The notes under the pieces are model-generated. The model was not told the DNA's origin and did no database searches. It saw only the letters and a list, made by a program, of their open reading frames with translations. From contig NZ_DS022276.1 in the NCBI RefSeq assembly GCF_000153725.1, positions 268,644 to 332,643 on the forward strand: a stretch of DNA of 64,000 nt, written 5' to 3'. Within the stretch, counting starts at the first letter, position 1. Each line of letters begins with the position of its first letter. Below, piece by piece: positions 6,299-20,846 of this stretch. This stretch comes from Salipiger bermudensis HTCC2601. Lineage in GTDB: Bacteria; Pseudomonadota; Alphaproteobacteria; Rhodobacterales; Rhodobacteraceae. Both the position numbers and the translations under genes were made by a program.

Positions 6299-7363
<1,065 letters not shown>

Positions 7364-7609
7364 GGTCTATCCTTTCCATTTCTGCAGACCGACGTAGCGT
7401 CACGTTGCTCTGGGCGCAACGCTCGTACACAGCCCGCTTAATTGTTACGCTTAACGCGTTGCTTTCGCTTAGCTCTCCCTCAGCCGGCCCATGCAGATGC
7501 TGCATAGCGGCATTGAGATATGGCAGGATTGTGCAGTCGCAGCATTTGCCACATGTTAGGGCCAACACAGCGAAACACACAGATACTCGAACACAGGCTA
7601 GCAACGAAC
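7364..7609. other. Upstream region of the DUF1127-sRNA locus
   Basis: This 246-bp divergent non-coding stretch lies between the mrp start and the DUF1127 start. It must hold the promoter for the DUF1127/hairpin transcript. In Rhodobacter sphaeroides the equivalent locus is stress-induced through RpoH-type sigma factors; I could not pick a confident -35/-10 pair here. No other feature is visible. Confidence 0.4.
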
Positions 7610-7819
7610 ATGGCATACGCAACCGACACCAGCACCCAAGGCTCGAACGGCTTCTTCGCCGGCATGATCGCCTCGCTGCGCGAGCGCAATGCCCGTCGCC
7701 GTCTCTACCGCGAGACGCTGCGCGAGCTTGGCCATCTGAGCAACCGCGAGCTGAGCGATCTCGGGCTGCACCGCTCGATGATCCGCCGGATCGCCTACCA
7801 GGCCGCCTACGAGGCCTGA
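7610..7819 (+). CDS. Small DUF1127 protein, CcaF1-like
   Basis: This is a 69-residue basic protein whose C-terminal half is a DUF1127 (YjiS-like) domain, with RLYRETLRELGHLSNRELS followed by DLGLHRSMIRRIAYQ. I placed the start at ATG 7610, because the upstream in-frame extension has no family similarity. The ribosome site is weak. In R. sphaeroides a DUF1127 protein of this kind (CcaF1), encoded directly upstream of the CcsR sRNAs, binds RNA and helps in sRNA maturation and turnover. The same arrangement here, with eight CCTCC-loop hairpins starting 11 bp after the stop, strongly suggests an orthologous role and one shared transcript. Confidence 0.85.
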   Translation: MAYATDTSTQGSNGFFAGMIASLRERNARRRLYRETLRELGHLSNRELSDLGLHRSMIRRIAYQAAYEA

Positions 7820-7830
7820 CCACAGTTTCC

Positions 7831-7906
7831 TCGAGGCGCTCTCCTCCTCCTCCCTGAGCGCATCGAGCCCGGCGGCGACCTCACTCCTCCTCCCGAGGTC
7901 GCCGCC
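7831..7906 (+). ncRNA. CcsR-like sRNA unit 1 (hairpins 1 and 2)
   Basis: This unit has two adjacent stem-loops. Hairpin 1 (7831-7866) has the stem GCGCTC/GAGCGC, extended by TCGA/TCGA, with the loop TCCTCCTCCTCCC. Hairpin 2 (7871-7906) has a perfect 12-bp stem, GGCGGCGACCTC / GAGGTCGCCGCC, with the loop ACTCCTCCTCCC. The loops are complementary to GGAGG Shine-Dalgarno sequences. It begins 11 bp after the DUF1127 stop. The paired-hairpin design and position match the CcsR RNAs of Rhodobacter, which are cut from a common transcript. Confidence 0.85.
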
Positions 7907-7935
7907 GCAAAGACAAAAGGGCCAAGTGCCCGACA

Positions 7936-8009
7936 GTTCGGAGCCCCTCTCCTCCTCCCTGGGGCCTTCGATACGCGACGGTGCCTCTCCTCCTCCCTGG
8001 CACCGTCGC
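7936..8009 (+). ncRNA. CcsR-like sRNA unit 2 (hairpins 3 and 4)
   Basis: Hairpin 3 (about 7938-7972) pairs GCCCC with GGGGC plus an outer TCGGA/TTCGA helix with one bulge. Hairpin 4 (7975-8009) has a perfect 11-bp stem, GCGACGGTGCC / GGCACCGTCGC. Both loops are TCTCCTCCTCCCT. This unit is almost a copy of unit 3, including the flanking words CGACAGTT and TTCGATACGCG, so the array grew by tandem duplication. Confidence 0.87.
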
Positions 8010-8032
8010 ACCCCATATCCGGGCCACGCGCC

Positions 8033-8112
8033 CGACAGTTTCGGAGCCCCTCTCCTCCTCCCTGGGGCCTTCGATACGCGGCGGGATCTCTCCTCCTCCC
8101 TGATCCCGCCGC
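8033..8112 (+). ncRNA. CcsR-like sRNA unit 3 (hairpins 5 and 6)
   Basis: Hairpin 5 (about 8040-8075) repeats the sequence of hairpin 3 with one added T. Hairpin 6 (8078-8112) has a perfect 11-bp stem, GCGGCGGGATC / GATCCCGCCGC, unrelated in sequence to hairpin 4 while the loop TCTCCTCCTCCCT is unchanged. Stem divergence with an invariant loop is the signature of selection on the loop. Confidence 0.87.
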
Positions 8113-8144
8113 ACCTCCCATTCGGACCGCAATGGTCCAGCCGG

Positions 8145-8227
8145 TTTCCGAAGCCCTCTCCTCCTCCCTGGGCTGTCGGAATGATCAGACGGCGGTGCCC
8201 CTCCTCCTCCCGGGCACCGCCGTTTTT
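8145..8227 (+). ncRNA. CcsR-like sRNA unit 4 (hairpins 7 and 8) with terminator
   Basis: Hairpin 7 (about 8147-8180) pairs CCGA-AGCCC with GGGCT-TCGG and has the same TCTCCTCCTCCCT loop. Hairpin 8 (8189-8222) has a perfect 12-bp stem, ACGGCGGTGCCC / GGGCACCGCCGT, with the loop CTCCTCCTCCC, and runs into TTTTTCG. It therefore doubles as the intrinsic terminator of the whole DUF1127-sRNA transcript. Confidence 0.87.
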
Positions 8228-8430
8228 CGTTTTCGCCCCCTTGCCTCTGAGCCCCGCCCGCGTGGCGGGCGATTTCGGGGCTCTGCCCCGTCCGCGCGGG
8301 CGCGCGGACTCCCCGGGATACTTTCGGCCAGAAGAAACCCGGGCGCGGCGCGGGACGTGCAGCCTTTCCCTTTGCCCCGCCAGCGGGTAGACGAGGCGGG
8401 ACAATGCATGCAGGCACGGGAAGACGACCC

Positions 8431-11400
8431 ATGGCGATGGAAAAGACCTTTGACGCGGCCGCCGCCGAGGCGCGCATCTACGAAGCATGGGAGAAGGCGG
8501 GCGCCTTTGACGCCGGGGCAAATGCCTCGCGCGACGAGAGCTTCTGCATCATGATCCCGCCGCCCAACGTGACAGGCTCGCTGCACATGGGCCACGCCTT
8601 CAACAACACGCTGCAGGACATCCTCGTGCGCTGGCACCGGATGCGCGGCTTCGACACGCTGTGGCAGCCCGGGCAGGACCATGCGGGCATCGCCACGCAG
8701 ATGGTGGTCGAGCGTGAGCTGGCCAAGGATGCCAGCAACGCCACCCGCCGCGAAATGGGTCGCGAGGCCTTTACCGCGAAGATCTGGGAATGGAAGCAGC
8801 AGTCTGGCGGCACCATCATCAACCAGCTCAAGCGCCTCGGCGCGTCCTGCGACTGGTCGCGCAACGCCTTCACCATGTCCGGCGCCGAGGGCGCGCCCGC
8901 GGGTGAGGAGGGCAACTTCCACGACGCGGTGATCAAGGTCTTCGTCGACATGTACGAGAAGGGCCTGATCTACCGCGGCAAGCGGCTGGTGAACTGGGAC
9001 CCGCATTTCGAGACCGCGATCTCGGATCTCGAGGTCGAGAACATCGAGGTGCCGGGCCACATGTGGCACTTCAAGTACCCGCTCGCCGGCGGCGCCACCT
9101 ACACCTACGTGGAGAAGGACGAGGACGGCACCGTGCTCTTCGAGGAAGAGCGCGACTATATCTCCATCGCCACCACCCGTCCCGAGACCATGCTGGGCGA
9201 CGGCGCGGTCGCCGTGCACCCGTCGGACGACCGCTACGCGCCGATCGTCGGCCAGCTCTGCGAGATCCCGGTGGGGCCGAAGGAGCATCGCCGCCTGATC
9301 CCGATCATCACCGACGAGTATCCCGATCCGACCTTCGGTTCGGGCGCGGTGAAGATCACCGGCGCGCATGATTTCAACGACTACCAGGTCGCCAAGCGCG
9401 GCGGCATCCCGATGTACCGCCTGATGGACACCCGCGGCACCATGCGCGCCGACGGCACCGCCTATGCCGAGGCCGCCGAGACCGCGCAGAAGGTCGCCCG
9501 TGGCGAGCTTACGCTCACCGAGCACGAGGCCGACGCGCTGAACCTGGTCCCCGATCACCTGCGCGGGCTCGACCGGTTCGAGGCGCGCGAGGCGGTGGTG
9601 CGCGAGATCACCGATGAAGGCCTCGCGGTGATGACCGAGGTCACCGATCCGCGGCTCGGCCAGGCGGCGGCCAAGGCCCCCGTGGCGCCCGAAGAGGGCG
9701 GCGAGGCGCGTGACGAGGCGGCCCAGTGGGTGCCGCTCGTGGAGGCCAAGCCGATCATGCAGCCCTTCGGCGACCGCTCCAAGGTCGTCATCGAGCCGAT
9801 GCTCACCGACCAGTGGTTCGTCGACACCGCGCAGATCGTCGGGCCGGCGCTCGACGCCGTGCGCGAAGGGCGCGTGCGGATCATGCCCGAGAGCGGCGAG
9901 AAGACCTATTATCACTGGCTCGAGAACATCGAGCCCTGGTGCATCTCGCGCCAGCTCTGGTGGGGCCACCAGATCCCGGTCTGGCACACCCCGGGTCTCG
10001 GCGACGAGTGGCGTTCGTTCTGTGCCGCCACCGAGGAGGAGGCGCTGAAGAAGATGCACGACTTCTTCGGCGAGGATGCCGAGTTCCTGATGGTCGAGGA
10101 TGCGGCAGCGGCCGAGGATCACCTTGCCGCCCTTCTCGAGCAGGGCACCGATTTCACCGGCGTCGACCAGCGCCGCCGGCCGCAGGCGATCCCGGTGTTC
10201 CGCGATCCCGACGTTCTGGACACGTGGTTCTCGTCCGGGCTCTGGCCGATCGGCACGCTGGGCTGGCCGGAAAAGACGGCGGAGCTCGAGCGCTACTTCC
10301 CCACCAGCGTCCTGGTGACCGGGCAGGACATCCTGTTCTTCTGGGTCGCGCGGATGATGATGATGCAGCTCGCCGTGGTCGACGAGATCCCGTTCCGGGA
10401 TGTCTACCTGCACGGGCTCGTGCGCGACGCCAAGGGCAAGAAGATGTCCAAGTCGCTCGGCAACGTGGTCGACCCTCTCGAGATCATCGACGAGTACGGC
10501 GCCGACGCGCTGCGCTTCACCAACGCGGCCATGGCCTCGCTGGGCGGCGTGCTGAAGCTCGACATGCAGCGCATCGCGGGCTACCGCAATTTCGGCACCA
10601 AGCTGTGGAACGCCGCCCGTTTCGCCGAGATGAACGGCGCGGTGGGGCTGGGCGGTGACCGCCCGGTCCCGCAGGCCACGGTGAACAAGTGGATCCTCGG
10701 AGAGACCGCGCGGGTGCGCGAGACCGTCGATGCGGCGCTGGCCGACTACCGCTTTAACGACGCGGCGCTGTCGCTCTACGCCTTTGTCTGGGGCGTGGTC
10801 TGCGACTGGTATGTCGAGTTCTCGAAGCCCCTGTTGCAGGGCGAGGACGAGGCCGCCAAGGCCGAGACGCAGGCCACGATGTCCTGGGTCATCGACCAGT
10901 GCCTGATCCTGCTGCACCCGATCATGCCCTTCATCACCGAAGAGCTCTGGGGCACGCTGGGCGAGCGCTCGAAGATGCTCGTGCATGGCGACTGGCCGAG
11001 CTACACCACCGAGGAACTGCTCGACCCGGCGGCGGATGCCGAGATGCGCTGGGTGATCTCGCTGATCGAGGGCGTGCGCTCGGCGCGGGCGCAGATGGGC
11101 GTGCCGGTGGGGCTCTACGTGCCGGTACTCGTGACCGAGATCGACGCCGCAGGCAAAGCGGCCTGGGCCAACAACGAGACGCTGATCAAGCGTCTGGCGC
11201 GGCTCGAGAGCCTGACAGCGGTCGACAGCTTCCCCAAGGGCTGCGTGACCGTGCCGGTGGGCGGTGCGACCTTCGGTCTGCCGTTGGCCGACATCATCGA
11301 TGTCGAGGCCGAGAAGGCGCGGCTCGAGAAGAACATCGCCAAGCTCGGCAAGGAGCTGGGCGGCCTGCGCGGGCGTTTGAAGAACCCCAAGTTCGTCGAG

Positions 11401-11508
11401 AGCGCGCCCGAGGAGGTGGTCGAAGAAACCCGCGACAACCTCGCCGCACGCGAAGAGGAAGAGGCCAAGCTCAAGGAGGCGCTGGCGCGCCTGGCCGAGA
11501 TCGGCTGA
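8431..11508 (+). CDS. valS: Valyl-tRNA synthetase
   Basis: ValRS charges tRNA-Val with valine and edits mischarged threonine. It is a class I enzyme of about 1025 residues here. The HIGH-type motif is HMGH (residues 52-55) after [10 protein letters not shown] long CP1 editing insertion follows, the KMSKS motif is intact at about 671-675, and the C-terminal anticodon-binding and coiled-coil tRNA arms are present ([20 protein letters not shown], seen near the end). I preferred ATG 8431 (MAMEKTFD), which matches family N-termini. An upstream in-frame ATG at 8404 has a good GAGGCGGG ribosome site and could also be used. An inverted repeat with T-residues follows the gene. Confidence 0.97.
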
Positions 11509-20561: not shown

Positions 20562-20600
20562 GAAAAAAGCCCCGTCGCGGTCAAGCGAAAGGGGCTTTCG
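20562..20600 (-). terminator. Attenuator terminator in the metZ leader
   Basis: On the minus strand, GAAAGCCCC pairs with GGGGCTTTTTTC across an 18-base loop, placed between the SAM-II aptamer and the metZ start. The stem runs directly into the T-tract, so it is a textbook intrinsic terminator. It is the likely expression platform of the riboswitch. Confidence 0.8.
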
Positions 20601-20605
20601 TCTGA

Positions 20606-20660
20606 CCTCTTTAGCGGCATGTTTAACGTGGCCCGCAATCCGGTAACAAAGCGCCACGGG
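20606..20660 (-). promoter_or_regulatory. SAM-II riboswitch upstream of metZ
   Basis: The minus-strand leader contains a P1 stem, CGTGGC / GCCACG, enclosing TTACCGGATTGCGGG, followed by TTAAACATGCC and then GCTAAAGAGG. These blocks match, in order, the SAM-II (metA-type) pseudoknot aptamer, including the ACCG-ATTGC loop and the conserved GCTAAA downstream strand. SAM-II is typical of alphaproteobacterial metA/metX/metZ leaders and represses on binding S-adenosylmethionine. Confidence 0.92.
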
Positions 20661-20846
20661 CCGCGCATTACGCCTCTCGCGCCGTTGCGTCAAGCTTTCC
20701 GGTTGTGACAGGCCGCGCCCGCCCGCCGGTCTTTACATCGAATGCGCTCGATTTGTGCAGCGATCCGCGCAGGCTGGCGCCGAGGGCGGTTGTCATTTCC
20801 GCCCGCCCTGCCCCATCATGTCGTGGGCAGAGGCAGCGGGACGACT

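Follow-up and report, generated by a model that had tools for sequence, protein, structure and literature searches.

In R. sphaeroides, the DUF1127 gene ccaF1 shares one transcript with four CcsR RNAs, which lie in the 3' UTR of the gene, and the parts available of the two reports on this operon describe an RpoHI/HII promoter, processing by RNase E and a terminator (PMC10253847, PMC8625941). In the sections of this literature that were covered, CcaF1 (RSP_6037) influences CcsR levels and maturation, and CcsR interacts with Hfq. The cuckoo RNA family, also CIN1 (Reinkensmeier and Giegerich 2015), is characterised in the portion of its definition compared here by adjacent CCUCCUCCC-loop hairpins with variable stems and by the association with a short DUF1127 gene. 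More distant relatives occur in Sinorhizobium meliloti, for which the available text of PMC3927594 describes families of RNAs that carry three or four hairpins of this type. NfeR1/ar14, SmelA075 and SmelA099 likewise present anti-Shine-Dalgarno loops on variable stems according to the portions available, and the loops of NfeR1 silence ntrB by pairing at its translation start.

The locus analysed here is a further member of the known ccaF1-CcsR kind of stress-sRNA operon, which it extends to another genus. As in R. sphaeroides, four tandem two-hairpin RNAs with CCUCCUCCC loops lie in the 3' UTR of a DUF1127 gene behind one putative promoter (Table 1), and a terminator-like hairpin stands where R. 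sphaeroides has its terminator. The layout also agrees with cuckoo/CIN1, from which no difference was found in the compared portion of the definition. The S. meliloti relatives differ in carrying three hairpins per RNA, and four in SmelA099, as far as the available descriptions go.

Table 1. Features of the array locus and its flanks, in positions of the window
Feature	Position	Strand	Basis and remarks
Mrp/ApbC-type P-loop ATPase, conserved upstream neighbour	6299..7363	-	Pfam; synteny
Box 1 TGCAGATGCTGCAT	7492..7505	+	TGCA-N6-GCAT, LysR-type T-N11-A form; exact in window
Promoter core GCATAGCGGCATTG-N12-ATTGTGC	7502..7534	+	Conserved; pattern in 137/295 family genomes
Box 2 TGCAGTCGCAGCAT	7532..7545	+	Second TGCA-N6-GCAT; overlaps -35-like TTGTGC (7529-7534)
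-10-like CATGTT	7552..7557	+	23 nt after TTG
DUF1127 protein, 69 aa, CcaF1-like	7610..7819	+	Pfam PF06568, 2.4e-11
Unit 1	7830..7907	+	Hairpins 7830-7867, 7870-7907; CcsR1 43.7 bits
Unit 2	7936..8009	+	Hairpins 7936-7974, 7975-8009; CcsR1 44.1 bits
Unit 3	8038..8112	+	Hairpins 8038-8077, 8078-8112; CcsR1 52.2 bits
Unit 4	8146..8223	+	Hairpins 8146-8181, 8189-8223; CcsR1 45.1 bits
Terminator-like last hairpin + TTTTT (8223-8227)	8189..8227	+	CCUCCUCCC loop; inverted repeat and sequence inspection
Valyl-tRNA synthetase (valS), conserved downstream neighbour in genus	8404..11508	+	Pfam; 16/18 same-genus loci

The window, the whole 64-kb stretch of DNA that was analysed, contains CCTCCTCCC eight times on the + strand (starts at 7846, 7886, 7951, 7989, 8054, 8092, 8160 and 8203; sites spanning 7846-8211), and a search of both strands found none on the - strand. 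Each site lies in a hairpin loop: the region 7830-8223 (+) forms eight hairpins with CCUCCUCCC in every loop, and the rest of the 64 kb lacks the motif. The first stem begins 10 nt after the DUF1127 stop codon. Folding of 7820-8235 as a single strand, a check proposed in the first-pass annotation, gave -202.1 kcal/mol compared with -142.6 +/- 5.9 for shuffled sequences (z = -10.07), and 0 of 100 shuffles matched the stability of the array. The hairpins are grouped as four pairs with loop-to-loop distances of 40, 38, 38 and 43 nt within the pairs. That annotation had described eight hairpins with a common loop, perfectly paired stems and four paired units of about 75 nt separated by about 30 nt. 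The array itself is confirmed, and by our folds the units measure 74-78 nt and the spacers 28-33 nt. Perfect pairing holds for the even hairpins, with stems of 13, 11, 11 and 12-14 bp and energies from -23.9 to -28.8 kcal/mol. In the odd hairpins, one or two minor bulges or mismatches interrupt the stem and the fold is weaker, at -15.2 to -17.7 kcal/mol, and the loop of hairpin 1 is longer than the others by an extra CTC. By inspection, the strong last hairpin leads into TTTTT; the consensus terminator scan reported none because it accepts loops of 8 nt at most, and the loop here has 11 nt.

In the 5.48-Mb genome, CTCCTCCTCCC occurs at 16 sites, eight of which make up the array. Among the other eight, one pair and one single site form hairpins with the motif in the loop (C6:1526461-1527295, all three within 0.85 kb on the fetched locus L044), and the remaining five (on L001, L002 and L084, and two on L085) fold without the motif as a clean loop. 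The single hairpin (L044 at about 2449-2485, - strand, around G000:C6:1526461) is strong, with -26.8 kcal/mol and a CTCCTCCTCCC loop, and lies about 0.8 kb downstream of a dispersed two-hairpin copy. The genome has four other DUF1127 genes, and the roughly 3.1 kb fetched around each contained no CTCCTCCTCC.

Searches with Rfam models returned no family above its threshold at the array locus. At a permissive threshold all four units matched CcsR1 (RF02791), the best match by E-value (about 1e-9 to 1e-11), with scores below its gathering cut-off of 65.3 bits; three array stretches matched ar14 (RF02344) with 44.9-54.5 bits, the best of 54.5 lying below the cut-off of 58.8 bits. The CcsR1 model is narrow, because 243 of 295 genomes drawn evenly across the family match it at E <= 0.001 and only 10 of the 295 pass the cut-off, and a score below the cut-off therefore says little. 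A small number of the 243 matches could be spurious, since one of 14 control genomes, Thermus composti, matched at the same E-value. The covariance-model check that had been suggested for the array thus succeeded for all four units as a match and for none as a score above cut-off; together with the common layout, this supports the earlier interpretation as CcsR/cuckoo RNAs. The loops here read CUCCUCCUCCC, in contrast to ACCUCCUCCC and UAUCCUCCUCCC in the Rfam CcsR1 consensus. Elsewhere in the window, 20590-20667 (-) matched the Alphaproteobacterial SAM riboswitch (RF00521, 61.4 bits).

Over 70 aa, the DUF1127 protein of the array is 52.9% identical to the one encoded next to the locus that matches Rfam CcsR1 best; identity to the Cereibacter johrii and Luteovulum azotoformans counterparts is 51.4%. 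That best match (L134, G094:C4; 106.2 bits) has 14 loops in 7 units, of which units 3-7 are nearly identical by eye; the literature has four CcsR RNAs. A contig search with a pattern made from the Rfam CcsR1 consensus gave 0 matches, and one made from the best-matching locus gave three stretches from two named species.

A pattern of two adjacent loops was found in 26 of 61 sampled genomes, comprising 20/20 of the genus, 6/17 from other genera of the family and 0/24 from other families of the class; the reversed control pattern also matched in one of the six other-genus genomes (G031) and in G002, G029 and G035. The CcaF1-like ORF and mrp flank the array in all 18 fetched same-genus loci and valS does so in 16; one more array at a contig end (L038) is too cut to judge and stands outside the 18. 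Among 17 further loci, chosen from the CcsR1 matches listed, 16 have the CcaF1-like ORF, 16 mrp and one valS. Two named species of the Cereibacter group, Luteovulum azotoformans (L154) and Cereibacter johrii (L155), share the CcaF1-like ORF, mrp, eight loops and the two-box promoter described below. In contrast to our locus, no valS turned up in the Cereibacter-group sequence that was fetched. Photosynthesis-linked roles of CcsR cannot be assumed for this array.

Related units also occur outside the arrays. In 21 dispersed single units fetched from same-genus genomes the upstream sides align and the downstream sides do not, and a [CT]ATGN-N8-CA element lies 109-118 nt before the first loop in 21/21. 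Within the array's own genome, the long GGTCTGCA-type pattern derived from dispersed copies had no exact match, and a palindrome pattern had 6 matches, all with 3 mismatches, compared with 2 in the control. Large plasmids match the array as well, with no listed gene beneath the match: five Thioclava plasmids and the Salipiger sp. CCB-MM3 plasmid NZ_CP014598.1 (79786-79868), where the match is a dispersed two-hairpin copy.

Loops and stems of the same-genus arrays evolve differently. Across 19 such arrays we counted 192 CCTCCTCCC sites compared with 13 variant-loop hairpins, which agrees with the earlier expectation that the loops do not vary freely between close relatives. The variants came from 15 array gaps of more than 90 nt. 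Two gaps were excluded because of N runs; each of the other 13 holds an extra hairpin with 1-2 changed loop bases and the motif still unpaired. The loop constancy rests on these gap variants, because the loop columns of the covariation set are invariant by selection. An uninterrupted stem of at least 11 bp was present at 103/192 sites and at 1/192 with shuffled flanks; since hairpins with stems of at least 8 had been preselected before pairing was counted, we prefer the covariation analysis of the even hairpins. In 36 distinct even same-genus hairpins 86.3% of the cells were paired. Column shuffling lowered this to 66.9% (at most 70.2%) and sliding the partners to 41-44%; double changes were present in 81 cells, compared with a shuffle mean of 24 (maximum 34). 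A wider set with other genera (77 distinct even hairpins) showed 65.6% paired cells compared with 54.5%, and 61.6% when slid by +1; we attribute this smaller excess to stem registers that vary from genus to genus.

The number of recognisable units per same-genus array ranges from 3 to 7. In L050 and L062, the two relatives whose DUF1127 protein is closest to that of the window, the first and last units share 97-98% identity with the window's units 1 and 4; to the remaining units of the window's array, units 1 and 4 show 63-71%. Over the genus as a whole, the identity of first units is 77% across species compared with 68-69% to the other units beside them in the array; last units give a less clear picture, with 78% both across species and to the middle units of their array. 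Among middle units, identity is 88% within species compared with 81% between species. From this pattern it follows that at least the first unit is orthologous, and that the middle of the array expands, contracts and is homogenised. Both the copy number and the similarity of units 2 and 3 (88% identity, spacers excluded) had been put forward as potentially new. Neither is a novelty, because same-genus arrays vary in number and middle units resemble each other within species throughout the genus. Judged from these identities, the four units of the window with their similar units 2 and 3 are one state of middle-unit turnover, and this counts as ordinary variation, since the loops are almost fixed while the stems covary.

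The promoter upstream of the DUF1127 gene is conserved together with the array. We compared 40 loci, namely the window and the same-genus and further loci with a located DUF1127 start, and all 40 share a promoter anchored on ATTGTGCA-N3-GCAGCA. Box 1 is present as TGCR-N6-GCAT in 37/40 loci, 36 nt (34 loci) or 35 nt (3 loci) from ATTGTGC, and in the strict form TGCA-N6-GCAT in 21/40; in mononucleotide-shuffled upstream regions it appeared in 1% of cases. Box 2 reads TGCA-N6-GCA in 40/40 loci and TGCA-N6-GCAT in 25/40, and the two boxes of the window are 40 bp apart. Both boxes are found in L154 and L155, with box 1 in its strict form. A CATNTW sequence follows 23 nt after TTG in 27/40 loci. 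A sigma-70 scan gave no match.

Searched as GCATRGCRGCATTG-N8-14-ATTGTGC, the promoter core occurs in 137/295 family genomes and its reversed control in 0. It is present as one site in 132 of the 137, with a spacer of 11 or 12 among the matches listed. When further CcsR1 matches per genome were left out and genomes without a listed CcsR1 match excluded, 49/56 core sites had a CcsR1 match at most 1.5 kb downstream on the same strand; the exact core is present in 52 of the 96 genomes with a listed CcsR1 match and absent in 44. Each of the 30 core loci listed is followed by at least one of the operon's features, a DUF1127 ORF in 27 and at least two CCTCCTCC in 28. At three loci (L264, L273, L283) no DUF1127 ORF was detected downstream of the core, and the CCTCCTCC loops follow directly.

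The available part of PMC10746234 reports that the rhizobial NfeR1 promoter has TGCA-N6-GCAT as its box for LsrB, a LysR-type regulator. Box 1 of the window (7492-7505) fits this published motif exactly, so that array and NfeR1 promoters share it; NfeR1 differs in being described, in the portion available, with a sigma-70 promoter of its own. In S. meliloti pSymA, the GCATGCTGCATGGCTGGGTTG upstream of SmelA099 (L290) resembles by eye the Rhodobacteraceae box region TGCTGCATGGCAGCATTG, a single case. We do not put LsrB itself forward as the activator. The GCAT-N3-TG-N3-T proposed as Brucella/Agrobacterium LsrB/VtlR consensus in the sections available of PMC8844928 and PMC7486931 has no fit in the conserved array promoter when read by eye, and PMC11975290 (section 31, as far as available) holds that LsrB is confined to Rhizobiales. 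In addition, an lsrB gene would be expected in an operon with trxB; the single complete trxB in this genome has no LysR gene beside it, its neighbours being an Lrp/AsnC-type gene on one side and a gene for ATP-sulfurylase/APS kinase on the other. Because of these points we propose from the boxes a LysR-type regulator class for the array operon without naming the protein; TGCA-N6-GCAT could alternatively be the site of another regulator class. The parts covered of the CcaF1, DUF1127 and LsrB literature contain no report of LysR-type control of ccaF1-CcsR, which other papers may discuss.

The loop sequence points to GGGAGGAG leaders as targets. Searching for GGGAGGAG-N3-10-ATG gave 70 genome sites compared with 8 for the reversed pattern; the control leader AAAGGAGA gave 27 compared with 2, so that the excess is that of any Shine-Dalgarno sequence. 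Removal of one nested start from the 63 ORFs of 80 aa or more left a candidate set of 62, with 8 DctP, 2 Peripla_BP_4 and 2 DctQ; 3 more solute-binding proteins were found among 20 ORFs scanned singly, a subset of the 62 picked by eye. At least 13 of the 62 candidates are thus solute-binding proteins, compared with none in the families listed for 22 control ORFs (one-sided p 0.013; the AAAGGAGA control is small, with 25 of 27 families listed). DctP, with 39 rows genome-wide or 38 genes if two adjacent fragments are one, is enriched among the candidates with p of about 1e-8, assuming 4,500-5,500 genes. This transporter bias may reflect strong leaders on highly expressed uptake genes, unrelated to the sRNAs. 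Among individual genes, an acyl-CoA synthetase-like gene (G000:C6:1142099) is the best candidate, since its leader GGGAGGAGGAG complements the loop without a mismatch over 11 nt. A clustering of target leaders on the secondary replicon C5 was dropped as an idea because control leaders lie there too (7/27).

Taken together, the locus is very probably a ccaF1-CcsR (cuckoo/CIN1) operon, in which a stress promoter would drive a DUF1127 protein and four 3' UTR sRNAs predicted to silence GGGAGGAG leaders. The sequences themselves establish the anatomy, stem covariation, synteny, conserved promoter and relation to CcsR1. We infer that the array is expressed from one stress-responsive promoter as a transcript with the DUF1127 ORF and the four two-hairpin sRNAs in its 3' UTR. 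An endonuclease, RNase E in R. sphaeroides, would cut the single-stranded spacers and release RNAs of about 75 nt, each holding two C-rich CUCCUCCUCCC loops on rigid stems. The loops would pair with the purine-rich GGGAGGAG Shine-Dalgarno leaders, block translation and promote decay, and their redundancy would raise the dose of one anti-Shine-Dalgarno seed. As scaffolds, the stems could drift in sequence with their pairing kept. The predicted targets include many uptake genes for TRAP and ABC solute-binding proteins. An RNA-related role of the array's DUF1127 copy is not a given, because DUF1127 proteins can work through protein contact, as with PhoR in the available part of PMC12501420.

The array might instead act as a decoy of the 16S rRNA 3' end, slowing translation generally under stress by titrating strong Shine-Dalgarno leaders without choosing among them; the loop core CCUCC is common to the generic anti-Shine-Dalgarno, and each transcript carries many loops, all alike. 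We regard this as unlikely. In plain duplex energies that ignore accessibility, the loop prefers GGGAGGAG over AAAGGAGA leaders with medians of -20.9 and -11.1 kcal/mol, a difference partly built in by leader choice, whereas the generic 16S 3' end discriminates little (-12.9 compared with -10.8 kcal/mol). The candidates are also rich in one functional class. Sequestration, with the loops binding a G-rich sRNA or the array titrating the DUF1127 protein or Hfq, would suit multi-copy sites, and the reported effect of CcaF1 on CcsR levels and maturation and the CcsR-Hfq interaction speak for it; we consider it very unlikely, as the related NfeR1 silences mRNA directly via its loops in the portion of the literature available. 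We give almost no credence to a small proline/serine/leucine-rich peptide or to DNA-level palindromes and rejected both on the conserved pairing and the loop periods out of frame (4/6 loop-to-loop periods are not multiples of 3), for although 7820-8235 can be read in two + frames without a stop codon, spacing differs among relatives and every copy lies on one strand, after the gene.

Returning to the probable CcsR operon, its predicted target list, rich in solute uptake, ties the array to the predicted transport-gene role of its rhizobial relatives. What most deserves further attention is the promoter, since it implies a class of regulator that the portions of the literature covered do not link to CcsR; the promoter signature marks such operons in about half of the family's sampled genera (137/295 genomes). 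Tentatively, the DUF1127-cuckoo operons of Rhodobacteraceae may form one conserved regulon with a LysR-type activator on two TGCA-N6-GCAT boxes, and rhizobial NfeR1 with its LsrB box would be a distant counterpart. If so, the activator would bind at two places separated by about four turns of the helix, with box 2 covering the -35 element, and a related promoter would serve the dispersed one-unit copies found elsewhere in the genome and on plasmids. In that case the array would work as a dose device whose output is set by one regulator, and the gain and loss of middle units would tune the count of identical anti-Shine-Dalgarno loops per transcript.
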